A stretch of DNA of 64,000 nt from positions 3,348,001-3,412,000 of the forward strand of contig NZ_AP027368.1 in assembly GCF_030296015.1 (NCBI RefSeq). The letters run 5' to 3'. Positions 23,670 to 34,282 of this stretch are shown in pieces. The notes beneath the pieces were generated by a model, which worked only from the letters and a program-made list of their open reading frames with translations, was not told the DNA's origin and ran no database searches. Within the stretch, counting starts at the first letter, position 1. Every line of letters starts with the position of its first letter. The position numbers were made by a program, and so were the translations under genes. The stretch is from Ferrimonas sp. YFM (lineage in GTDB: Bacteria; Pseudomonadota; Gammaproteobacteria; Enterobacterales; Shewanellaceae).

Positions 23670-24269
23670 TTACAGAAAATCAGGCACATCCAGGGTCTCA
23701 CCGGACATATCGCCCTCTAGGGCTGCGATGTAGGCCTTGGCAGTATCCAGGGCAGAGACGCCCTGAGTGCTGTCCATGCCCATCATCTCCATGGTCTCCT
23801 TAACGAACACCGGGGCCACCACATTCAGGCGCAGCTGTGGCAGTTCCAGGGCCGCCGCCTTGGCGTAGCTCTCCAGGGCGCCATTCACCAGGGAGATGGA
23901 GGCGGTACCGGGGAAAGGCTGACGGGAGAGCACACCGGAGGTCAGGGTAATGGAGCCGCCCTCGTTGATGTAGTCGCGGCCAAAACGCACCAGATTCACC
24001 TGGCCCATCATTTTGTTCTCTACCGCCGTGGCGTAGTCGGCGTCAGTCTGCTCGGCCAGGGGACCAAACACCGCCACACCGGCGGCGCTGATGATGGCGT
24101 CCACCTTGCCCACCTCGGCCAGCATAGCTTTGATGGACTCAGGGTTGGCCAGATCTACCTTGACGTCACCGCTGTTGAAGTTGGCGGCAATCACCTCGTG
24201 CTTGCCTTCCAGATGGGCCGCAATGCCTTTGCCGATGATGCCGCTGGCGCCTACCAATAAAATTTTCAT
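23670..24269 (-). CDS. short-chain dehydrogenase, copy 2
   Basis: 199 residues from the ATG at 24269, with AAGGA ten bases upstream; the reading frame stays open to 25058 but that part is antisense to the LysR gene. Motifs mirror copy 1: ILLVGASGIIGKGIAAHL, KVDAIISAAGVAVFGP, SITLTSGVLSRQPFPG, SISLVNGALESYAKAAALEL. The usual YxxxK is again replaced by a LVNGALE stretch. The two genes are tandem paralogs. Divergent from the LysR gene by 93 bases, which probably regulates it. Confidence 0.85.
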   Translation of the reverse strand: MKILLVGASGIIGKGIAAHLEGKHEVIAANFNSGDVKVDLANPESIKAMLAEVGKVDAIISAAGVAVFGPLAEQTDADYATAVENKMMGQVNLVRFGRDYINEGGSITLTSGVLSRQPFPGTASISLVNGALESYAKAAALELPQLRLNVVAPVFVKETMEMMGMDSTQGVSALDTAKAYIAALEGDMSGETLDVPDFL

Positions 24270-24362
24270 AGCTCTGATTCCTTCACTCTGTGTCTGTGTT
24301 GGATTCAGAATAGGCTCTCGCTTAAAATAGAAAAATAACCTCGAAATGAAATCAATTTTCTC

Positions 24363-25271
24363 ATGGAAAGAAAAATAGACCTGATCAAAGCGATGCGCAC
24401 CTTCCTGGTGGTGGTGGACCAAATGAGCTTCTCCGGCGCCGCCCGGCAGCTCAACATCGTGGTCTCCGCAGTCAGCCGCCAGGTCTCCGACCTTGAGAAA
24501 CACTTCGACTGCACCCTGCTCTATCGCACCACCCGCGCCATGCAGCTGACCCCTGAGGGCCGCTTCTACCAGGAAAAGTTCAAAGGGGTACTGGACCGGC
24601 TCGATGCCCTGGAGTCCACCACCCAGACCCGCCGCCAGGTGATAGGCGGCCACCTGCGCATCACCAGCGCCTACAACATCGATCAGTTGGGGATTCAGAA
24701 CCACATCGCCGACTTCCTCAAGCAGCACCCGGACGTGCGCCTCTCCTGGGTGATGGTCAACCGCTACGTCAACCTGATTGAGGAGGGGTTCGACCTGGCC
24801 CTGAGGGTGGGCCAGTTGTCGGACTCCAGCTTTATCGCCCGGGACTACCACACCATAGGGGTGCGCTTCGTCGCCAGCCCAGGCTATTTGGCGGAACACG
24901 GCACCCCCTGCCACCCCAAGGAGTTGACGAACCATAAGATGCTCATCGACGGCTCCAACCGCCAACCGGGACGGGTACGCTACTTCGAAAACGGCAAGGA
25001 GCACCACTTGAGCGTGCAGGGGCAGATCGAGGTCAATCAGGGACCGGTGCTGGGACAACTGGCCGCTGCCGGCCTGGGCATCGCCCAGTTGCCAGACTTC
25101 ATGGTGGAGGACGCCCTAGAGCAGGGCGAGCTGGTGTCCATCATGGAGGACTATTGTCTGCCGAGAATTCAGGTCTCCCTGGTCTATCCGGCCAGCAAGC
25201 TCACCGACCCCACCCTGCGCGCCTTCATCGACCACCTGCTGGCCGCACAACGGCAGCAAAGCAGCGGCTGA
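24363..25271 (+). CDS. LysR-family transcriptional regulator
   Basis: 302 residues, standard length. Helix-turn-helix at residues about 18-60 (SFSGAARQLNIVVSAVSRQV then DLEKHFDCTLLYRTTRAMQL), linker helix, then a periplasmic-binding-type effector domain from about residue 95 (GHLRITSAYNIDQLGIQNHI). It belongs to the AaeR/DsdC-like group that often sits beside oxidoreductases. It is divergent from the SDR gene and is likely its regulator. The effector is not predictable. Confidence 0.88.
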   Translation: MERKIDLIKAMRTFLVVVDQMSFSGAARQLNIVVSAVSRQVSDLEKHFDCTLLYRTTRAMQLTPEGRFYQEKFKGVLDRLDALESTTQTRRQVIGGHLRITSAYNIDQLGIQNHIADFLKQHPDVRLSWVMVNRYVNLIEEGFDLALRVGQLSDSSFIARDYHTIGVRFVASPGYLAEHGTPCHPKELTNHKMLIDGSNRQPGRVRYFENGKEHHLSVQGQIEVNQGPVLGQLAAAGLGIAQLPDFMVEDALEQGELVSIMEDYCLPRIQVSLVYPASKLTDPTLRAFIDHLLAAQRQQSSG

Positions 25272-25322
25272 ACAGCCAACCAACAGGGGATGACCAAAAA
25301 ATCCTCAAACAAATCAAAAGGG

Positions 25323-25352
25323 TTTTCAACCGCCGCTAAACCCGGCTAGAAT
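25323..25352 (+). promoter_or_regulatory. candidate promoter of tRNA-Arg
   Basis: TAGAAT at 25347-25352 lies 11 bases before the tRNA and TTTTCA at 25323-25328 gives an 18-base spacer. The -35 is poor. Confidence 0.4.
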
Positions 25353-25362
25353 GCAGAGCGTA

Positions 25363-25438
25363 CTCCCTATAGCTCAACAGGATAGAGCAGCCGCCTCCTA
25401 AGCGGCCGATCGAGGTTCGAGTCCTCGTGGGGAGGCCA
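25363..25438 (+). tRNA. tRNA-Arg (anticodon CCT)
   Basis: The 76-base sequence folds as a full cloverleaf: acceptor CTCCCTA with TGGGGAG (one T-G pair), D stem GCTC/GAGC, anticodon stem GCCGC/GCGGC around CTCCTAA (anticodon CCT, reads AGG), T arm CGAGG-TTCGAGT-CCTCG, discriminator G and an encoded CCA. A rare-codon arginine tRNA, and a common site for integration of genomic islands. The AT-rich island begins directly after it. Confidence 0.93.
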
Positions 25439-25439
25439 C
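25414..25439 (+). repeat. attachment-site-like repeat, left copy (tRNA 3' end)
   Basis: The last 26 bases of the tRNA region, from the T arm through CCA plus one base, recur at 30813-30838 with two mismatches. This is the usual attL arrangement for tRNA-targeted islands, where the element restores the tRNA 3' end. Confidence 0.75.
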
Positions 25440-25817
25440 CCACATAAGCTTATGAAAATAAAGCCTTTTCACTCAAATTCCACTTGCTAAAAACACCTCC
25501 TAGAAATTGCCAAAAGTGACCTCGGGTCTCGCTTTGCGGGTTTGAATTCCCAAACCCTCATCAACTTCAGCTATCTACTTCAAGTTAAAGCGGCCGATCC
25601 ATCTCAGTTTTACCGATTCAGTAAACGATTTCCTGAGCTGGGAAAGGTTTTACCGTTTTAGGAAAGCTGGCAAGATGGTTACTATTTCGCCAGGCAGACT
25701 TTTGCGGAACAAGCTATACGAAACCCCACATAACAAAATGCCGAAATTGTCAGTTGCGATCTGCAGTGTTCGGGGTTTTAGACTAAGGTCTTCAATTGCC
25801 AGTGGAAGGAGAGGCCC
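25439..25817. other. non-coding island edge
   Basis: 379 bases with no gene. It has a perfect seven-base hairpin at 25538-25557 (GGGTTTG and CAAACCC around AATTCC) and two copies of GTTTTACCG near 25604 and 25648. It should hold the promoter of the gene at 25818. Confidence 0.4.
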
Positions 25818-26474
25818 ATGCGTAACCTAGCTATTGCGTTCTTGATTGCTGTAACAGCAATCACTACCTACTTGTATATCAATAACCGCCCTTCATCATG
25901 TCTTCGCGATCTAGAGCATCACTCTATAGAACTAGCCATATGTAATTCCCTAAAAGTGACCTCTCAAGACTGTAAGGCTGAAGAAAGCAGATCAGTTATT
26001 TCAGGCCTAGAATGCCGAAAAAATGGCATTAGTGAGGATCAGATTTTTGCGGCTATAGACCTAGGAAGTCGTAAAGCAGGTGACCTTCCTACCAGCCCAT
26101 ATGAGAAAATAAAGGAAAGCCTAGAATCCTCTCCTTATCACCTGAAGCCTACAGAAGCCAACTTCACAAGCTTTTCGAGCAGGTGCTTAGCGTATGGCGG
26201 CCAACTCCACCGTATTTTTGGGTACCATGTGAAGAATGGCCACGCAGAGTTCATCGCCATAGAGCTCGATAGCCCCTGCCTCGGACTTGAACTAATCGAT
26301 AAGAAATTTCCAGTGATAACCAGTGACCAACTAGAAGAGCTAAGCTTGAAGTCTCAAAAACAAGGATGGTATCCAGCGAAATATAAGAAAGTTACTATCC
26401 ACCAAGTCCGCACCTTAGATGAAGCAACATCGATATATAAAGAAATGGAGGCCAGGGCAACCAGTATGAAGTAG
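25818..26474 (+). CDS. hypothetical membrane-anchored or secreted protein
   Basis: 218 residues. A good ribosome site (GGAAGGAGAGG) precedes the ATG. The N-terminus MRNLAIAFLIAVTAITTYLYI is a single hydrophobic helix, either an uncleaved anchor or a signal sequence; the rest is soluble with seven cysteines, most in the first half (SSCLRD, LAICNS, QDCKAEE, GLECRK). I recognise no family. Codon use is AT-rich, unlike the flanking core genes. It is the only + strand gene of the island and is isolated, so it may be cargo unrelated to the - strand genes. Confidence 0.7.
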   Translation: MRNLAIAFLIAVTAITTYLYINNRPSSCLRDLEHHSIELAICNSLKVTSQDCKAEESRSVISGLECRKNGISEDQIFAAIDLGSRKAGDLPTSPYEKIKESLESSPYHLKPTEANFTSFSSRCLAYGGQLHRIFGYHVKNGHAEFIAIELDSPCLGLELIDKKFPVITSDQLEELSLKSQKQGWYPAKYKKVTIHQVRTLDEATSIYKEMEARATSMK

Positions 26475-26562
26475 GGAGAGACTACGGGCTAGCCAGGAGC
26501 TGAGCAATTGATAATGAACATCATGCTCACCCCCAAAAAAGATCCTTATTTCTCACGCATAA

Positions 26563-26617
26563 AAATCTGACCAGGGGGGCGGTACTTAGTCTAAAGGCCC
26601 TAGAGATTTGACCCGCC
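26563..26617. repeat. structured island repeat, copy A
   Basis: Shares with copy B (29917-29974) the block AAATCTGAC, then GGCGGTACT, then TAGAGATTT with ACC. In both, AAATCT at the start can pair with AGATTT near the end, closing a hairpin with a GC-rich interior (GGGC with GCCC here). The middle has drifted but the ends and the GGCGGTACT block are kept. Same orientation as copy B. Confidence 0.55.
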
Positions 26618-26846
26618 CCAGGGTGCGAGATCTGTCGCCACCACGCATCAAACCACCACCTGACACGCGGCGGGCCTAGGCCAATCCCATGCCCCCTAAT
26701 AACTTTGCTAAGCGCTGAGAGCCCGTTGAATGCTCCTGGCCAGAGCTGACCGCCCAGCAGTAAACTGTGTAATCCAGTACCCAAATAGCCAGTTTTTTGG
26801 CTTTTCTTTGGCGTGTTTTTTCCAAGTATGCGCTAGGTACCCCCCT

Positions 26847-26888
26847 CTAAACCCCTAAAGTCCCTTTTTCGACCTTTAGAGGGTTTAG
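26847..26888. other. imperfect inverted repeat (possible RNA hairpin)
   Basis: CTAAACCCCTAAAGTC at 26847-26862 faces GACCTTTAGAGGGTTTAG at 26871-26888; the arms pair along their whole length with two single-base bulges, around CCTTTTTC. No T-run follows, so it does not look like a simple terminator. Confidence 0.5.
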
Positions 26889-27163
26889 ACGGGATCTTAC
26901 CCCTGCGTAATTGATTTATTACATCTGGTACAAATCACCAGGGCCAAATCAGTTAAGTGGTATGAACTCATACCTCAAAAATTGCGACCCCTTATACGTA
27001 GGTTGTTCAAACCCCTAGTCCCAGTAAACACCAAGATCATGATTACCAGTTGTGGATTACTAGCGACCCAATAATTTCCTAAGCTGCGCCCCCCACGATA
27101 AGGGAGAAGGATTGGAAGAGCCTGTAACATCCACAGGCAATGCTCTGCATCAGCGCCCGCCAA

Positions 27164-28774
27164 CTATTCCTTAAGGCTAAGTAGAAAGTCAGTATCTTTT
27201 ACACTAGTCAGTTCACCCTTAACAAAAGAGTGCAACTTTAAGAACTCAATAACATTACCATTCCATGCATATATGGACATCTGGAGTGCTTGGATCATCC
27301 TATCAAACAGGAGATCTCTTTCTCTAGATATCTTTTCGTTTTGCCCAGTTTTCTCCGAAGCAATATTCTCTAGATACTGAGAGAAGAAGGACTTTCTTTT
27401 GCCAAGTTCTTGATCCAATCCCTCAACAACGTCAATAATCTCTGACAAAGACAAGCTTTCACTTTTACAGACCTCAAGTAACATTTCAAACTCATCAATA
27501 CTTAAGTAATAGACTCTGCTAATGGGCACCTCTACACTTCCAACTTCATCAATTACCTTTTGCTCTATTTCGCTATCAATTACCTCGTTGAGGGCTCTCG
27601 CTGAAGGAATCTGATAGTTCTTGTGCGTTACGATAATTGAAGACAATTTCTTATTGCCCTCAATATATCCTATTTCCTTTAATTTCTTTGCACACTCCTG
27701 AGATTGAACAAGTCCTTTTATAAAACTACCCTCCAGCCTTTTCTCAATCTTCCCTTTGTCGGTACTTGTTTTGACTACCATATCCGGCTCTATTGCCTTT
27801 GAGTCAACTAATATGTAACCATCATGCTCCTGAATTAGAAAGTCAATAACCTTACCACTAATCGAGTTGTTTCTATAGAGCTCCTTAACCTGGCTCTCTT
27901 GTATATATGTCAATTGAGCATCATTTAAAATGCTTTCAACATAATTCTCCATCACAGGACCAAAAATTGACTTGAACTCCTCTTTAAAATGGAGCTTTAA
28001 TAAACATGGCACTAAATCAGTTGTTCCATTGGAAAATACACTTTTGCTTATAAATGCAAACTTTTCAGCTTCCACTAAGATAGGTTTAAGCATCAATGGT
28101 GAATCTTCAAAATATTCCCACTCCGGTGATGCTCCTTGCTCAAACCTGTTCATGAATTCTGGAAGAAGTCGAACGGGAATTCCCACCAATTTTATGTAAC
28201 CAATTATCGTTTCAATAGAATGCCTAGGATGGAGTTTCGTAATTATATCACCCAAGTTTATTGCTTCAGCCTCTTGGACTTTCTTTGAAGACAGCCAGAC
28301 TTGGAGCATCGCAGATATCTCATAGTAGTCTATTAAATCAATATCCGTGAGCTTGTTAAAAGCTAACTTTATAGGATCGTTCTCCGAGAACCACATTAGC
28401 TGCCTACATATACTCTCAAGCTGAGACTTTTCGGAGACTTGAAAAGTAGATTGTATTCTAAGAAGTGGCTTAAGTGACATCATTACTTCTTCAAAACTTT
28501 CATTCCCAGATATAACTTCGTTTTGCAGATTCCATATCATATTTAGAATCTTTAATAGTTCAGCCTCGCTTATATCTACAGCATAATCATACGCTCGATA
28601 ATTCAGCTTCCACTTCAAAGCAAGCATACAACACCATGGAGCTTTTCTTAAGCTCACAGTCAAGTTGCCACTAGGTTTTGCTAAATAGTTAAATAGTTGA
28701 TAAGCAAAGGAGCTATCGGTGAACCTCTTTAGTCTCTTTTTAATTTCTAATGTTCTCTTCTCATATTGACTCAT
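27164..28774 (-). CDS. large hypothetical protein with PD-(D/E)XK-like nuclease signature
   Basis: 536 residues from the ATG at 28774, which has GGAG 11 bases upstream; an in-frame TTG nine codons earlier is weaker. The N-terminal half is helical with no family I recognise. Around residues 308-325, KVIDFLIQEHDGYILVDSKA reads like a PD-(D/E)XK nuclease core: an Asp after a hydrophobic strand, then a second strand ending D-S-K. The C-terminal 200 residues are alpha-helical. Proteins of this size with a lone PD-(D/E)XK core in islands are often anti-phage or restriction-type. Strongly AT-rich codon use. It lies 145 bases after the neighbouring - strand gene and could share its transcript. Confidence 0.65.
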   Translation of the reverse strand: MSQYEKRTLEIKKRLKRFTDSSFAYQLFNYLAKPSGNLTVSLRKAPWCCMLALKWKLNYRAYDYAVDISEAELLKILNMIWNLQNEVISGNESFEEVMMSLKPLLRIQSTFQVSEKSQLESICRQLMWFSENDPIKLAFNKLTDIDLIDYYEISAMLQVWLSSKKVQEAEAINLGDIITKLHPRHSIETIIGYIKLVGIPVRLLPEFMNRFEQGASPEWEYFEDSPLMLKPILVEAEKFAFISKSVFSNGTTDLVPCLLKLHFKEEFKSIFGPVMENYVESILNDAQLTYIQESQVKELYRNNSISGKVIDFLIQEHDGYILVDSKAIEPDMVVKTSTDKGKIEKRLEGSFIKGLVQSQECAKKLKEIGYIEGNKKLSSIIVTHKNYQIPSARALNEVIDSEIEQKVIDEVGSVEVPISRVYYLSIDEFEMLLEVCKSESLSLSEIIDVVEGLDQELGKRKSFFSQYLENIASEKTGQNEKISRERDLLFDRMIQALQMSIYAWNGNVIEFLKLHSFVKGELTSVKDTDFLLSLKE

Positions 28775-28919
28775 AATAATTTTCGCTCCATATGAAAACA
28801 ACCAACCCTAATAAGCAGCCCATCTTTACTTCTATTAATTCCAGCACTGGCAACCAACTCGTCTTGTTTCTGCGCCTTCATCAAAACCCCACCAAACAAG
28901 CCTGTCATTAACGAAAACC

Positions 28920-29816
28920 TTAAGCCTTAGCCCACCCCAATTCAACCAGCACAAACCACAAACAACTTAAGGCCAAGTTGGCATCATCATCAGTTAATGG
29001 TCGAGTTTGGTGCCTCTCCTGCTCATTCGGTTTTCCTCGATAATGTAAACGCCTAACAGTGTCAGCACATCGGCTTACCAGGTTTTCTCCATTCCCCTTC
29101 GGGTTGCGCGCTTTGTTTGACTCAACATACTTCCCAACACCTTTGCCCAAATCCAAGTGAAGATCTCCGGCCAACGCGCCAAACACAACTGAAAGAGCAT
29201 CTCGACACCTATCGATGGTATCTACTGGCCCCAGCCGATTAGCACTAGCTTCTACCTTGTCCAGAGTTTGCTGTATTGACCGTAAAGCAGTAGTCGGTTG
29301 GATATGGTGGGCCAGTAGTTCAGGTATCACACCAAAACTATGCAATGCCTTAAGGGTGATCAAAGGTTGTCCATCGACTTGACTCTCAATTGACAAGACC
29401 TTCCAAAACGAATGATAGGGCTCATCACCCAACACTACTTTGGGAAGAGCACTACAAGATCGGAGAGACGTAAGTGAATCGATTTGATAACTAATGGCTT
29501 CAAGTAGCTGGGCAAGACCGCCTCCCCATGGACGAGTATTCAGATCTTTGCGTATGGGGTCTTGAACATGCCAAGTTGCTGGCTGAGAGGAGTACTGTCG
29601 ATAAACGCGCCCTCGGCGAATCTTTGTAATGGGGTCGAAGCTGTCCTCACGGAAGATCAGGCCTGAGTAACCCCAAAGTTCTCTATCAGGAACTTGCATA
29701 TCCACACCAACAAACTCGATGGGCAACATCGGAGTGGGATTTTCAACAGGAGTACCGAAGCTAGAACGACCCTGGTACAACCTCCCTGATAACTTACAAA
29801 AAGCTATCTCTCGCAT
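28920..29816 (-). CDS. hypothetical protein with HEPN-like C-terminal helices
   Basis: 298 residues from the ATG at 29816, chosen because GAAGGAGAGG lies eight bases upstream; an earlier in-frame start overlaps that site. The first 150 residues are mixed, with WGYSGLIFREDSFDP and an ordered region ending WHVQDPIRKDLNTRPWGGG. The last 100 residues form helices with DTIDRCRDALSVVFGALAG, LVSRCADTVRRLHYRGKP and LTDDDANLALSCLWFVLVEL, a pattern like HEPN domains and the C-terminal parts of abortive-infection proteins. That resemblance is by eye. It is upstream of the nuclease-like gene on the same strand. Confidence 0.6.
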   Translation of the reverse strand: MREIAFCKLSGRLYQGRSSFGTPVENPTPMLPIEFVGVDMQVPDRELWGYSGLIFREDSFDPITKIRRGRVYRQYSSQPATWHVQDPIRKDLNTRPWGGGLAQLLEAISYQIDSLTSLRSCSALPKVVLGDEPYHSFWKVLSIESQVDGQPLITLKALHSFGVIPELLAHHIQPTTALRSIQQTLDKVEASANRLGPVDTIDRCRDALSVVFGALAGDLHLDLGKGVGKYVESNKARNPKGNGENLVSRCADTVRRLHYRGKPNEQERHQTRPLTDDDANLALSCLWFVLVELGWAKA

Positions 29817-30222
29817 ACAGCGCCTCTCCTTCAACAACTGATCAATTAGGCTATTTCTAATATGGCTTCGCGCCCCAAAAAGTGGGCTTCTTAAATTTCA
29901 TATTTCGCGGCAGTACAAATCTGACTGAGGAGGCGGTACTGGGGTTAAGCCCCCCTTAGAGATTTAACCTCCCTACTTACCAAAAAACAACGAACACTCT
30001 AGATGATGGCTAGAGCAGTGCTTTGAAGATTGGAAGGATCTCTCCAAAGAAGGGTTCACCAAATATCAGTGCGGCAGGGAGTGTCAAAACAGCTAGGGGC
30101 ACTACCCCTACAACCACAGCAGCTATAGGGAATAGAATGATAACCAAAAACCAAAAAGCGCAGAGGCTCTTTCAACTCCAACTTTAAAGACCTGCCGTTT
30201 TGAGGTCCTACTACACCACTGT
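29817..30222. other. non-coding island segment
   Basis: 406 bases with no supported gene. It carries repeat copy B at 29917-29974 and should contain the promoter for the - strand gene starting at 29816. Confidence 0.4.
29917..29974. repeat. structured island repeat, copy B
   Basis: Direct, diverged copy of 26563-26617. Of the first 24 bases 20 are identical, and the TAGAGATTT block near the end is kept. Here the interior forms GGGG-TTAAG-CCCC. The two copies bracket the two larger - strand genes at a distance of about 3.4 kb. Confidence 0.55.
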
Positions 30223-30441
30223 TTACACTTTGACTGTGCAGCCAGTGGCCCCGGCCTTATGCGCTTCAACTCCGATCTGAAGCCCAAGACCAAATGAACG
30301 CACCATTCCTTCATAGATGTTGTTGATCTGTTCCTCTGTCACGCTTGAAGAGCTAATGGCAAACACACATGTCCCGTCGAAGTCTATAGAGTACTGCCCG
30401 TTCTCAAAATTGAGAGTTAGTTGAAGATCAGTGCTGGCCAT
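30223..30441 (-). CDS. small hypothetical protein
   Basis: 72 residues from the ATG at 30441, six bases after GGAGG; a longer reading to 30501 has no ribosome site. The sequence begins MASTDLQLTLNFENGQYSID and ends GATGCTVKV, with a predicted beta-rich first half and a helix (EEQINNIYEGMVRSFGLG). No family recognised. It lies in the island on the same strand as the larger genes but 400 bases upstream of them. Confidence 0.55.
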   Translation of the reverse strand: MASTDLQLTLNFENGQYSIDFDGTCVFAISSSSVTEEQINNIYEGMVRSFGLGLQIGVEAHKAGATGCTVKV

Positions 30442-30525
30442 CAATTGCCTCCATGAGCATTCGGCTTGATTCAGAGTCCCTTTCTCAATAGCACCACACA
30501 AACATCCAGTGAATCAACAAATAAA

Positions 30526-30561
30526 CCCCTCAGCTTGGGGTGAGGTGGCCTCAAGTTGAGG
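30526..30561. promoter_or_regulatory. overlapping GAGG/CCTC palindromes
   Basis: CCTCA (30528-30532) pairs with TGAGG (30541-30545), and CCTCAA (30549-30554) faces TTGAGG (30556-30561) around a single G. The region is between two - strand genes; it could be a terminator for the upstream small gene or an operator before the 72-residue gene. Confidence 0.35.
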
Positions 30562-30592
30562 TGAAGTCATCACTCCTCAAACACAGTGGTGA

Positions 30593-30796
30593 TCAGTGTT
30601 TTGCCATCGAGCCGGATCCCCCTTTTTTCTCACAGACTCTAATCCAGCGGTCAAAACTCTTGACGCTAAGCCCTTGTGGCTTCATATCGTCTCGGACAAT
30701 GTCCCATTCAGTAGAGTACCTCTGAGCTTGACGATACCTAATGGCTTGGTAAGCCGTCTGATAATGTTTGGTGAGCAGCCTAGCGGTTTCAAGCAT
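30593..30796 (-). CDS. small hypothetical protein at the island edge
   Basis: 67 residues from the ATG at 30796, starting MLETARLLTKHYQTAYQAIR; the frame stays open upstream through the attachment-like repeat, but the longer product would be read through tRNA-derived sequence and has no ribosome site. The body contains STEWDIVRDDMKPQGLSVKS, which may form two helices. It sits 17 bases inside the right boundary, the position where excisionase or recombinase-linked genes often lie, but I see no similarity to one. Confidence 0.45.
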   Translation of the reverse strand: MLETARLLTKHYQTAYQAIRYRQAQRYSTEWDIVRDDMKPQGLSVKSFDRWIRVCEKKGGSGSMAKH

Positions 30797-30812
30797 CTGC
30801 TCTTCTTCGGGT

Positions 30813-30838
30813 GGTTCGACTCCTCTTGGGGAGGCCAC
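30813..30838. repeat. attachment-site-like repeat, right copy
   Basis: 24 of 26 bases match the tRNA-Arg 3' end at 25414-25439, including an unbroken GGTTCGA, TCCTC and TGGGGAGGCCAC. No tRNA body precedes it, so it is not a second tRNA gene. Interpreted as attR. Confidence 0.72.
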
Positions 30839-30980
30839 TTCAGTAGAGAAGGAATGGCACTGGATGACGGCCTTCGCAACAAAGGGCCTCCAGGGATAAT
30901 AGGAGTGTTGCTTGAGCCCCACTACCGACCTGATGGTCAATGACGGAAGCTAATTCGGGAAGCTTTCAGACCGGAAAAGA

Positions 30981-32858
30981 CTACAGCTCCGTCTCCCCCA
31001 TCATTGCCTCCTCTTCCAGCTCATCATCCATGGAAGTGTCCATAGCAAAGTGGCGCGTCTGCCAGCGCTCGAGAATCCAGGCTTCCAGCGCTTGGCGGCG
31101 ATGATTAAGGGTTTCCGCATTCCAGTCATCGTAAGTGGCCAGCTTGCGCTCCTGCTTGATGCAGGAGTCACTGTAACTGGGGCTGACGCCAGGGGCACCC
31201 TTCTTTCGCTGAAAATCGAAGTTGGAGTAGCTGGCGTTGTCCTTGGTCAGCACCAGGTTGCCCAGGTCGTGCAGGTGGGTGGCGCGCTCCTCGTCACTCC
31301 ACACCTTAAGCCAATGGGAGTCTTCCGCCGGAGTTTGGGGCAGGATGTGTTCGATGGTGGAGTCCTTGGCCAGCTCCTGCCAGGTGATTTTCGGCTTGCT
31401 GCCCTTGCCCTCTTTGTCCATCAGGTGGTGCTCGTATTCAAACAGGGTGTATTTGAGCAGCCTGCGCCAGTGGTACCACTTACCCGGCTCCTTCAATTGA
31501 ACCGCAAAGGCACTGTCACTGGCGTAATAACGAATCAAGTCATGAATCTTGGCGACTATGGCCTCCAAATTCAGCTGACTTTGATTAAACAGCTCGTGGC
31601 CCCAGCGATACAGAGTGGAGCTGCCTGAGTTACTGCGCTTGCCCTCGAACAGAAACACCCGATAGGCGTAGCACTCCAGCGCCTGCAGCAATTCGATGTA
31701 CTGGGCTTCTGTTACCTCGCCGGCTTGCCAACGGCTTCGAGCGGCCACCAACAAAGGCAAGAAGTTGGCGATGTTGCCGGTGTTGTTGATCCGCTCCAGC
31801 CAGGCCAGTTCGGCGGCGGAATCGGTGTTATCCGCCGTAGGGCTGATGACGACCTGGTAGTGGCGGGCTACCTCAGGTAATCCCTTTACGAACTTCAGCA
31901 TAAAGGCGCGGGTTTCCGCCTTGGTTTTAGTGGCCTTTCCAGGCTGTCCATCGACAGCAAAATCTCTCAGCGGGATGTACTGAGGTTGCTTGAAGCCGTC
32001 ATAACCCTTCCAGTTTTTCGGCAGATGATGGCAATAAAGAGTCCACGCCAGGCGCAGACATTGAGACTCGCTGCCACCAGCGTCGCCCACAAAGCCATAG
32101 GTGTCACGCCAGGCCAGGTTCACCCGGCTGGTCAGTTCCTCACGCTCCTCGGGTGCACCATTGCGGGCAATCCAGTGCATCAGGTAGTTTTTCAGCAGCT
32201 CCAGCACCGACAGCTCTTTGCCCCGGGAATTCATCAGCTCGAAGGTCATGCCAATCTCACACTCCTCCTCGATGGTGTAGGAGGTAAACACTAACTTACC
32301 GGTGATCGCCTCAAACAGCTGGATCAGGTAATCCACGCCCTTGGCATCGTCAGTCAAAAGCTCAGCGACGTGGGCCTGAAAGTAGGCGGTGGCTTCGCAC
32401 AGACGGCGCTGATGTGGGGTGGTGGGTAGCTTGAGCGGCCGTCCCTCTGACAGCAGCCGATGGAACAGCTCGGCGGTGTCATTATTCAGGGTGAGCTTGC
32501 AGCGCAAACCGTCGTAGAGAAAGTCGGCGATGTCCCGCTCATACTCGGTCCGCCCCTTGGCTATCAGGGCATTAATGATCACCGACAGATACAAGCAGGT
32601 CGTTGTCAGGCGCTGTTGGCCATCCACCACATCGACCACCTTAGCCGGTCGGCGCCCATAGGTGGCGGTAGGGTGACTGGCCTGATAGGTCACCACGGTG
32701 CCGGTGTAGTGGTAGTGAACATTGTCGTCGGTAACCAAGGCATCCAGATCCTCAACGAAATCCCGCCACTGCTTCTTCTCCCAGGCGTAACCCCGCTGAT
32801 AGTCGGGAATGTGGAACAGGGTGCTGGAGAAAAGGTCGGTAAGCGATTGCTTGTTCAT
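30981..32858 (-). CDS. DUF262-DUF1524 (GmrSD-type) protein
   Basis: 625 residues. The DUF262 domain is N-terminal with IPDYQRGYAWEKKQWRDFVE and the catalytic-type motif VVDGQQRLTTT (residues 78-87); the DUF1524 HNH-like domain is C-terminal with STIEHILPQTPAEDSHW (His near residue 503) and HDLGNLVLTKDNASYSN. This single-chain order is that of GmrSD type IV restriction enzymes and related anti-phage proteins, where DUF262 is an NTP-hydrolysing/DNA-sensing domain. AGGA lies nine bases before the ATG. GC content and codon use match the core genome and not the adjacent island, and it lies outside the attachment repeat. Confidence 0.88.
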   Translation of the reverse strand: MNKQSLTDLFSSTLFHIPDYQRGYAWEKKQWRDFVEDLDALVTDDNVHYHYTGTVVTYQASHPTATYGRRPAKVVDVVDGQQRLTTTCLYLSVIINALIAKGRTEYERDIADFLYDGLRCKLTLNNDTAELFHRLLSEGRPLKLPTTPHQRRLCEATAYFQAHVAELLTDDAKGVDYLIQLFEAITGKLVFTSYTIEEECEIGMTFELMNSRGKELSVLELLKNYLMHWIARNGAPEEREELTSRVNLAWRDTYGFVGDAGGSESQCLRLAWTLYCHHLPKNWKGYDGFKQPQYIPLRDFAVDGQPGKATKTKAETRAFMLKFVKGLPEVARHYQVVISPTADNTDSAAELAWLERINNTGNIANFLPLLVAARSRWQAGEVTEAQYIELLQALECYAYRVFLFEGKRSNSGSSTLYRWGHELFNQSQLNLEAIVAKIHDLIRYYASDSAFAVQLKEPGKWYHWRRLLKYTLFEYEHHLMDKEGKGSKPKITWQELAKDSTIEHILPQTPAEDSHWLKVWSDEERATHLHDLGNLVLTKDNASYSNFDFQRKKGAPGVSPSYSDSCIKQERKLATYDDWNAETLNHRRQALEAWILERWQTRHFAMDTSMDDELEEEAMMGETEL

Positions 32859-33040
32859 TGAGTGGTTCCTGACTCATCAAGGGTGTGCCAAAGACCGCCT
32901 CTGACATCACAACAAAGCCTTATACCATGGTGACTTATGCTTTGAGTAGTGGACGGGTCACGGCAGGGGAATGGAGCTGGACGACAGGGCTGACAGAAAA
33001 ACCCCGCCACCAGCCCGAAGACCGATGACGGGGAGGTCGA

Positions 33041-34282
33041 TTACTGGTTGGGCATCAGTGGGGCGATAACCCGAGGCAGGACGCCCTGAAGCTTGGAAAT
33101 GGCTACGCCGTAGTTGGTGATGGGCACGCCGCGGCGCTGACACTCGCGCACCCGGCGCAGCATCTCGGTGCGGTTGAACATGCAGGCGCCGCAGTGGATC
33201 ACCAGGGCGTACTCCTCCAGGTTGTCCGGGAAATCGTGGCCACTGACCACATCGAACTGCAGGCTCTTGCCGGTGTATTTACCAATCCAGTTGGGCAGTT
33301 TCACCCGGCCGATGTCATCCTCCTGCACATTGTGGCTGCAGGCCTCAGCGATCAGCACCTTGTCGCCCTCTTCCAGGCTGTCGAAGCGCTCGGCCCCCGC
33401 CACCATGGGCGGCAGGTCGCCCTTGAAGCGGGCAAACAAGCTGGAGAAGGTGGTCAGGGGAATGGAGTTGGGCACCACCTGGTCGACGAACTTGATCACC
33501 TGGGCGTCGGTGATCACCAGCTTGGGCGGTGTGGTGAAGCGCTTCAGTGCGTCGGCCAGTTCGGTCTCCTTGACCACCATGGCCATGGCGCTTCGGTCCA
33601 GGGCTTCGCGCAATACCTGCACCTGGGGCAGGATGAGACGCCCCTTGGGGGCGGCGGTGTCGATGGGCGCCACACACAGCACCACGTCACCACTGCGGTA
33701 GAGATCCCCGGCCAGCACTGGTTCTGCCTTGAGCTCCTCCGGTGCCAATTCAAACAGCCGCTGCTTCAGGGCCGAGATATTGCTGCCGGTGGTGGCGGAG
33801 ACGCAGATGTGGGCCAGGCTGCGCTCCAGGCAGAAAGCCAGATCATCCCGGGAGGGCTGATGGCTGTCGCCCTTGTTGAACACCACCAGAAACGGCAGCT
33901 CGAGAGACTGCATCTGCTCAATCAGCGCCAGTTCGTAGTCACCCAGCCCCTGATCGTCGGCGATGAGCATCGCCATGTCGGCGCGGCACAACACCTTGTG
34001 GGTGGCGCCCACTCGCAGGGCGCCGAGGTCGCCCTCATCGTCGATGCCGGCGGTATCGAAGATGGTCACCGGCCCCAGTGGCAGCAGCTCATAGGGCTTG
34101 GCCACCGCGTCTGTGGTGGTGCCCTTGGTCTCTGAGACGATAGAGATCTGCTGGCCGGTCATGGCGTTGAGCAGGGAGGATTTTCCCACGTTGCGGCGGC
34201 CCACCAGGGCTATCTGGTAGCGCATGCCCCGGGGCGTGGCCTGGGCCGCAGCGTCGGCGGCGTTTTGCATTCCGGTACACAT
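33041..34282 (-). CDS. hydF: [FeFe]-hydrogenase H-cluster maturation GTPase HydF
   Basis: 413 residues from the ATG at 34282, with GGAG eight bases upstream. The N-terminal GTPase has P-loop ALVGRRNVGKSSLLNAMTG, switch sequence TKGTTTD and TIFDTAGIDD. The C-terminal cluster domain has HNVQEDD and HCGACMFNRTEMLRR with the conserved Cys residues that hold the [4Fe-4S] cluster. HydF is the scaffold that delivers the 2Fe subcluster to HydA. Last gene of hydGXEF, one base after hydE. Confidence 0.95.
   Translation of the reverse strand: MCTGMQNAADAAAQATPRGMRYQIALVGRRNVGKSSLLNAMTGQQISIVSETKGTTTDAVAKPYELLPLGPVTIFDTAGIDDEGDLGALRVGATHKVLCRADMAMLIADDQGLGDYELALIEQMQSLELPFLVVFNKGDSHQPSRDDLAFCLERSLAHICVSATTGSNISALKQRLFELAPEELKAEPVLAGDLYRSGDVVLCVAPIDTAAPKGRLILPQVQVLREALDRSAMAMVVKETELADALKRFTTPPKLVITDAQVIKFVDQVVPNSIPLTTFSSLFARFKGDLPPMVAGAERFDSLEEGDKVLIAEACSHNVQEDDIGRVKLPNWIGKYTGKSLQFDVVSGHDFPDNLEEYALVIHCGACMFNRTEMLRRVRECQRRGVPITNYGVAISKLQGVLPRVIAPLMPNQ

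Follow-up and report, generated by a model that had tools for sequence, protein, structure and literature searches.

We analysed a 64,000-nucleotide stretch of the genome of Ferrimonas sp. YFM (contig NZ_AP027368.1, positions 3,348,001 to 3,412,000), hereafter the window, and within it an integrase-less island at a tRNA-Arg(CCT) gene. The island spans the 5.4 kb between two attachment (att) copies, encodes a GapS1-family antiphage protein, contains two sites resembling the cohesive-end (cos) packaging signals of phages and is probably the remnant of a phage satellite. The host genome comprises 4.66 Mb in a single contig. In window coordinates, with open reading frame (ORF) lengths in amino acids (aa), the features of the locus are as follows:

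25363–25438, plus strand: tRNA-Arg(CCT), the integration site (ARAGORN); its attL core is 25414–25439
25818–26474, plus strand: orfA, 218 aa, no family, with an N-terminal hydrophobic stretch (read by eye)
26541–26622, plus strand: cos-like site 1 (phage-only model R2, 62.3 bits, E 1.5e-17)
26975–27163, minus strand: small ORF whose counterpart adjoins the cos-like site of a congener (G009:C13)
27164–28801, minus strand: orfB, GapS1-family antiphage protein (NF047931)
28920–29837, minus strand: orfC, uncharacterised conserved protein with 38 relatives in GTDB genomes and five on plasmids
29895–29975 (R2 span 29896–29973), plus strand: cos-like site 2 (R2, 40.7 bits, E 8.2e-11)
30223–30501, minus strand: orfD, 92 aa, no family (nothing below E 0.3 in Pfam, PADLOC, NCBIfam and PHROGs)
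30593–30796, minus strand: orfE, 67 aa, similar to the C-terminus of a primase-helicase of the Toprim/AAA_25 type and adjoining attR
30813–30838, plus strand: attR, a copy of the tRNA 3′ end with two mismatches
30981–32858, minus strand: GmrSD-type (DUF262/DUF1524) gene outside the island beside attR (Pfam), conserved in four congeners

The tRNA-Arg(CCT) gene is the sole tRNA of the window. The 26-mer at its 3′ end (25414–25439) recurs at 30813–30838 with two mismatches, a repeat matched in none of 100 shuffles. At one of the two mismatches, attR has the base that this tRNA gene carries in at least four congeners (G002, G003, G004 and G012). GC content in 1-kb steps is 0.37–0.49 between the att copies; in the flanks it is 0.55–0.62 at 22–25 kb, at least 0.56 over 31–39 kb and 0.55 at 39 kb. 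Of what characterizes a tRNA island, the duplicated tRNA 3′ end and the GC drop are present and an integrase of its own is absent. Specifically, Pfam analysis of the five island ORFs (orfA to orfE) revealed no tyrosine recombinase between the att copies (PF00589 absent), and a six-frame scan of the host genome located eight Phage_integrase places, all outside the island; serine recombinases were looked for solely through the Pfam scan of the same five ORFs. A preliminary description, made from the DNA letters alone, had reported the recurring tRNA end, an AT-rich interior between GC-rich flanks and the lack of a recombinase in the 5.4 kb. The shuffling test and the GC profile bear out the first two, and the third holds for the tyrosine type. 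A search of 24000–33000 against Rfam matched nothing except the tRNA.

The same tRNA gene was found in all 14 genomes of the genus, the host genome included, and its locus is a genuine integration hot spot. Five of the 13 congeners (G001, G005, G007, G009 and G010) carry islands there with related tyrosine integrases, identified by Pfam in G007, G009 and G010 and by homology alone in G001 and G005; the pairwise identities of the five integrases range from 33 to 76% (ten pairs). Each of these islands repeats the tRNA end as an att copy, 109–169 bp beyond the integrase start. The G005 island is spread over two contigs and has a short integrase ORF (265 aa), and those of G009 and G001 contain type I restriction genes (read by eye) together with a Toprim/AAA_25 primase-helicase (Pfam). 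Two congeners, G006 and G011, have an empty site, the bare tRNA being followed by a relative of the NERD gene of G009; in G003 such a relative lies ~1 kb after the tRNA. The sequence past the G009 attR aligns with that past the G006 tRNA, which makes these two loci a proper occupied/empty pair.

A second copy of the last 17 bases of the tRNA was also sought. In congeners without such an island, the best copy in the scanned stretch has 3–5 mismatches, similar to shuffled sequences (mean 4.3–5.4), compared with 0–2 mismatches in G001, G007, G009 and G010. The window copy has one mismatch, a value equalled in at least one of 30 window shuffles; for the window, the 26-mer comparison carries more weight. 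The preliminary description had named two cases that would speak against an island, a 26-base copy persisting in island-free relatives and island genes in syntenic order among relatives. Neither was seen: no second copy with fewer than 3 mismatches in 17 occurred in the scanned stretch of tRNA loci free of such an island, and orfB and orfC are absent from the tRNA-Arg locus in all 13 congeners.

The two cos-like sites are ~80-bp direct repeats in the same orientation, 3.35 kb apart. A similar repeat occurs in G009; a further one, from a different genus, lies between an HNH gene and the terminase small-subunit gene (terS). Two queries returned matches in 96 and 101 phage records at E ≤ 10, many of them weak. 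In five of the seven phage regions fetched (K303, ST101-KPC2phi6.3, SfII, SKA5 and QHHSV-1), the element lies 16–144 bp upstream of an annotated terS; in PhiPS02 and ST64B (a record marked circular) it lies near the record end, and in SfII it is both near the end and upstream of terS. In HK97, the HNH gene is described as directly upstream of the terminase and cos (PMC10448857). Model R2, built on nine copies with none from the window or G009, gave the window copies the scores listed above and the G009 copy 58.0 bits; besides these three, the sole match in the 457,521 bases searched reached 14.9 bits. We infer that the window sites are helper-type cos packaging signals, as predicted from their sequence. 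Across the 14 genus genomes, scored at the best 150 first-look candidates per genome with a model that included the window copies, only the two window copies and the one in G009 exceeded 21 bits, so no resident helper prophage of this cos type was found. Weaker congeneric matches (14–20 bits) were taken as background, since the best of them (20.1 bits, G005:C7) lies amid ordinary chromosomal genes.

An integron attC reading of the two repeats was rejected, since neither shows inverted core boxes (by eye). Their RNA folding does not surpass that of shuffled sequences (z −0.81 to 0.16). A viral-contig scan with one exact degenerate pattern returned 0 matches.

R2 was applied to 394 genomes of the order and identified 38 places in 33 of them. 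With two places in G223 left out, 36 were classified: 19 lie beside terminase/HNH genes and 17 do not, two of the latter being the window sites and the remaining 15 forming 14 loci. Within the fetched 7–20 kb, a tyrosine integrase match was present in 11 of these 14 loci, although L195 and L199 have only a short or broken one, and a tRNA or transfer-messenger RNA (tmRNA) in 9. At a matched scale (~1.5 kb on each side, less at contig ends; 30 loci), a tRNA was near 5 of 14 non-terminase loci versus 0 of 16 terminase/HNH loci (one-sided p 0.014; 4 of 13 and p 0.030 without the window). The loci of G414 and G215 look like complete satellites, with a tRNA-Met, a cos of this type, small genes, an integrase and an exact att repeat, to which G215 adds an AlpA-like HTH_17 gene.

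That 19 of the 36 classified sites stand beside terminase/HNH genes would suit a defective prophage remnant, with cos sites inherited from a phage and not from a satellite. We regard such an origin as highly improbable: no terminase, HNH, capsid, tail or lytic gene was recognized among the five island ORFs (Pfam, PHROGs), and terS, which starts beside cos in the terS-annotated phage regions and the listed prophages, does so at neither window copy.

A satellite origin draws in addition on orfE. This ORF matches the C-terminus of the primase-helicase of the G009 island (tblastn E 3e-8, 30% over 73 residues) and of the G001 island (tblastn E 2e-6, 40% over 52 residues). Two further genomes of 295 (G223 and G133) contain matches of 37–39%, again at the C-terminus of a primase relative, and these relatives are 39–44% identical to the primase of the congeneric islands. 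All orfE matches are thus confined to the C-termini of one primase family; the peptide had no match in the plasmid collection. With orfB in the GapS1 family, orfE resembling a primase-helicase and two phage cos-like sites, the interior can no longer be called orphan throughout, as it had been in the preliminary description.

The att pair, the five islands with related integrases, the empty sites of G006 and G011, the cos-like sites, the correspondence of orfE to a primase C-terminus, the satellite-like loci elsewhere in the order and the precedent of two cos sites in one known satellite (EcCICFT073) together favour, with a probability of about 0.68, a phage satellite of the cos type that entered tRNA-Arg(CCT), has since decayed and now persists as a fixed defence block. 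A tyrosine integrase of the congeneric kind would have inserted the element into tRNA-Arg(CCT), creating attL and attR; the duplication is observed, and the agent is suggested by the relatives. As the sequence and position of the cos sites suggest, the active element would have replicated and then been packaged by a co-infecting phage of the HNH-cos-TerS type, whose terminase recognizes these sites. The integrase and the greater part of the primase may then have been lost in a deletion that ended close to attR, with orfE as the remainder. What is left would be GapS1 plus orfC, flanked on either side by a cos-like site of different sequence, in a fixed block that presumably no longer excises itself; at most, a helper terminase might start packaging of host DNA at a cos site. 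The preliminary description had offered either a minimal passenger moved by a helper or a decayed island. Decay fits better, and the helper's part would fall to a phage and not to another integrase alone, something that emerges only once the cos-like sites are recognized.

Several observations weigh against the decayed-satellite reading. Neither AlpA nor a complete primase was found in the island, and orfE is short (67 aa), shares just 30–40% identity with its matches and has a weak PHROG match (E 0.022). No fetched phage record labels the element as cos, an identity deduced from its position. Terminase-linked loci viewed at the 7–20 kb scale showed an integrase or tRNA in 0 of 3 (three fetched), an unequal control for the 14 non-terminase loci. 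R2 detected no cos in any of the five integrase-bearing congeneric islands, so the att/orfE side and the cos side may differ in origin. Finally, in a query of 30839–33200, bases 30839–30981 were unmatched in all 13 congeners, which leaves a single clean insertion unsupported. The empty site that had been predicted, with 25438 joined directly to the sequence after 30838, was accordingly seen in 0 of 13, and to call the att pair clean was an overstatement: the pair is real, but attR carries two mismatches and is followed by this unmatched segment. The GmrSD-type gene beyond it is 80–93% identical at the DNA level in G005, G006, G009 and G010 from ~30982 onward. In G005 and G009, other genes separate it from the att copy.

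The main rival explanation is accretion, in which at least two elements landed successively in the tRNA-Arg hot spot and left three fragments (orfA with cos 1; orfB, orfC and cos 2; orfE with attR), the inner att copy having been lost. The right flank unlike that of 13 of 13 congeners and the absence of this cos type from the five congeneric islands speak for it, as does the hot-spot nature of the site itself. The two cos-like sites are identical in 51 of 88 columns and closest to different relatives, so the pair is not a recent duplication, and this too would suit separate arrivals. Beyond the attR of the G001 island (L032, oriented 15841 on) lie TGTCCCGC repeats that resemble, by eye, those at the left-hand ends of the islands in G005 and G010; tandem islands are possible there. 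Against accretion, no third att copy exists within 25439–30813 even when as many as 5 mismatches in 24 are allowed, and we consider it unlikely on balance.

Under a third explanation the island would be an intact passenger: a cos cassette of minimal size, without an integrase from the outset, that relies for its movement on a helper phage and on the integrase of another island. That the att copies and cos-like sites are all retained, and that the frames of orfB and orfC are open, would agree with this. However, no tRNA-Arg integrase was seen in the host genome, where tRNAs were sought at six of the eight tyrosine recombinase loci and a single tmRNA was the sole find; the remaining two recombinases (307 and 312 aa) were assigned to XerC/XerD by length only. 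The integrase beside the tmRNA shares just 23–26% identity with four of the tRNA-Arg integrases, and orfE looks like a gene remnant. An intact passenger is therefore very doubtful, and a decayed satellite remains our preferred reading.

The 425-aa integrase next to the tmRNA (L052:7627–9483) probably marks a second island of this genome. Elsewhere (L054:3716–9220, at ~4.587–4.592 Mb), a 410-aa tyrosine recombinase heads a cluster with 577-, 707- and 145-aa genes, none of which matched NCBIfam above cut-off.

Among the island genes, orfB alone exceeds a family cut-off, scoring 376.3 bits against NF047931 (cut-off 320) over model positions 1–454 of 455 (NCBIfam). It contains a PD-(D/E)XK-like motif (read by eye), and the protein is, judging by sequence, probably a nuclease acting on infecting phage; it had no match among PDB sequences. 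Its relatives were found in G013 and G056, in 5 plasmid-collection records and in 17 phage records. One phage-borne relative adjoins the integrase of a P2-like (Peduoviridae) prophage, and a GAPS1-like fold is reported for that same phage in PMC12774648, where the Gamma-Mobile-Trio paper is cited as the source of the GapS1 antiphage family.

No family above cut-off was found for orfC in Pfam, PADLOC, NCBIfam or PHROGs. Its AlphaFold2 model has a mean predicted local distance difference test (pLDDT) score of 83.6 and matched no PDB fold at E ≤ 0.001. The family conserves a FREDSFDPVTRVRRGR-like motif and an RLHxRGKxNE-like motif, and its 38 relatives are, by record titles, mostly from Betaproteobacteria. 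Some stretches bearing these relatives carry BREX, Zorya, DUF262 or type I specificity genes. Among the PADLOC models that match 82 neighbouring ORFs, the commonest (best 25 of 311) reach only 3 members apiece and mostly concern type I specificity, which makes the link to defence no more than suggestive; orfC is a candidate new defence gene. Nothing matched orfA in the same four collections. The small ORF at 26975–27163 shares 52% identity over 40 aa with its G009:C13 counterpart, and 67% over 175 nt at the DNA level.

Phage-inducible chromosomal islands (PICIs) of Gram-negative bacteria, as EcCICFT073 is presented in PMC6092414 and PMC6739421, resemble the window island in being att-bounded, in having no recognized structural genes and in carrying two different cos sites of helper type, which in the window are predicted from sequence. 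The island differs in lacking an integrase, AlpA and a replication module, of which there is only the C-terminal primase-like fragment, in its size (5.4 kb versus 12–15 kb; PMC6092414), and in its cos, which belongs to the HNH-terS group and not to the lambda group. With PICMIs, the small marine satellites of Vibrionaceae, it shares minimal size (6.1 kb in PICMI115), short direct repeats and defence cargo. However, PICMIs are described at fis and as needing int, alpA and a primase, while the window island lies at tRNA-Arg and has none of these complete; the PICMI finder model likewise requires an integrase, AlpA, a primase and fis (PMC10803314). P4-like satellites and P2 prophages also place defence genes directly beside cos (PMC9122126), but psu, sid, delta and the alpha primase were not recognized in the five island ORFs (Pfam, PHROGs), and the window cargo lies between two cos-like sites. 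The same position sets this GapS1 apart within a family whose NCBIfam cut-off it passes. Gamma-Mobile-Trio islands carry the GmtY, GmtZ and GmtX genes; the comparison with them covered the tyrosine recombinase, which was not found in the window island.

The layout of cargo between direct cos copies recurs in G299, where two cos copies (27.9 and 24.4 bits) inside 139-bp direct repeats (84% identical) flank two minus-strand genes. The same block is present at 92.7% over 1,943 bases in G400, a member of another genus of the same family, where the second cos copy is weaker (20.6 bits) and no integrase was found in the 20 kb fetched. The blocks (L198:9984–11907 and L202:9809–11748) encode MarR-like and SRPBCC-like proteins (by eye), and outside them the two stretches fetched share only short pieces, the longest of 333 bp. 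For EcCICFT073, two different functional cos sites are reported (PMC6092414), and why it has two is a question raised in a passage of PMC6739421. We tentatively suggest, as an idea with rather long odds, that the cos-to-cos segment could be a mobile unit, with cargo genes acquired and transferred as cassettes between cos sites: a linear molecule released by terminase cuts at its cos ends might be ligated, through those cohesive ends, at the cos of a different satellite. Such joining would leave cargo between two direct, different cos sites, and its footprints would be GapS1 with orfC in the window and the G299/G400 block. No account of cos-flanked cargo was found in the open-licence literature.

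An orphan-looking, integrase-less tRNA island can thus be recognized as a probable satellite remnant by means of cos sites, which finders that depend on gene content leave unused. Over an entire order, the cos model by itself was enough to single out satellite-like loci that have no terminase genes. The arrangement of cargo between two cos sites, seen in the window and in one block of two genera, offers a testable route by which defence genes may enter satellites. If the cassette idea were true, it would provide a physical mechanism for defence hotspots adjacent to cos.

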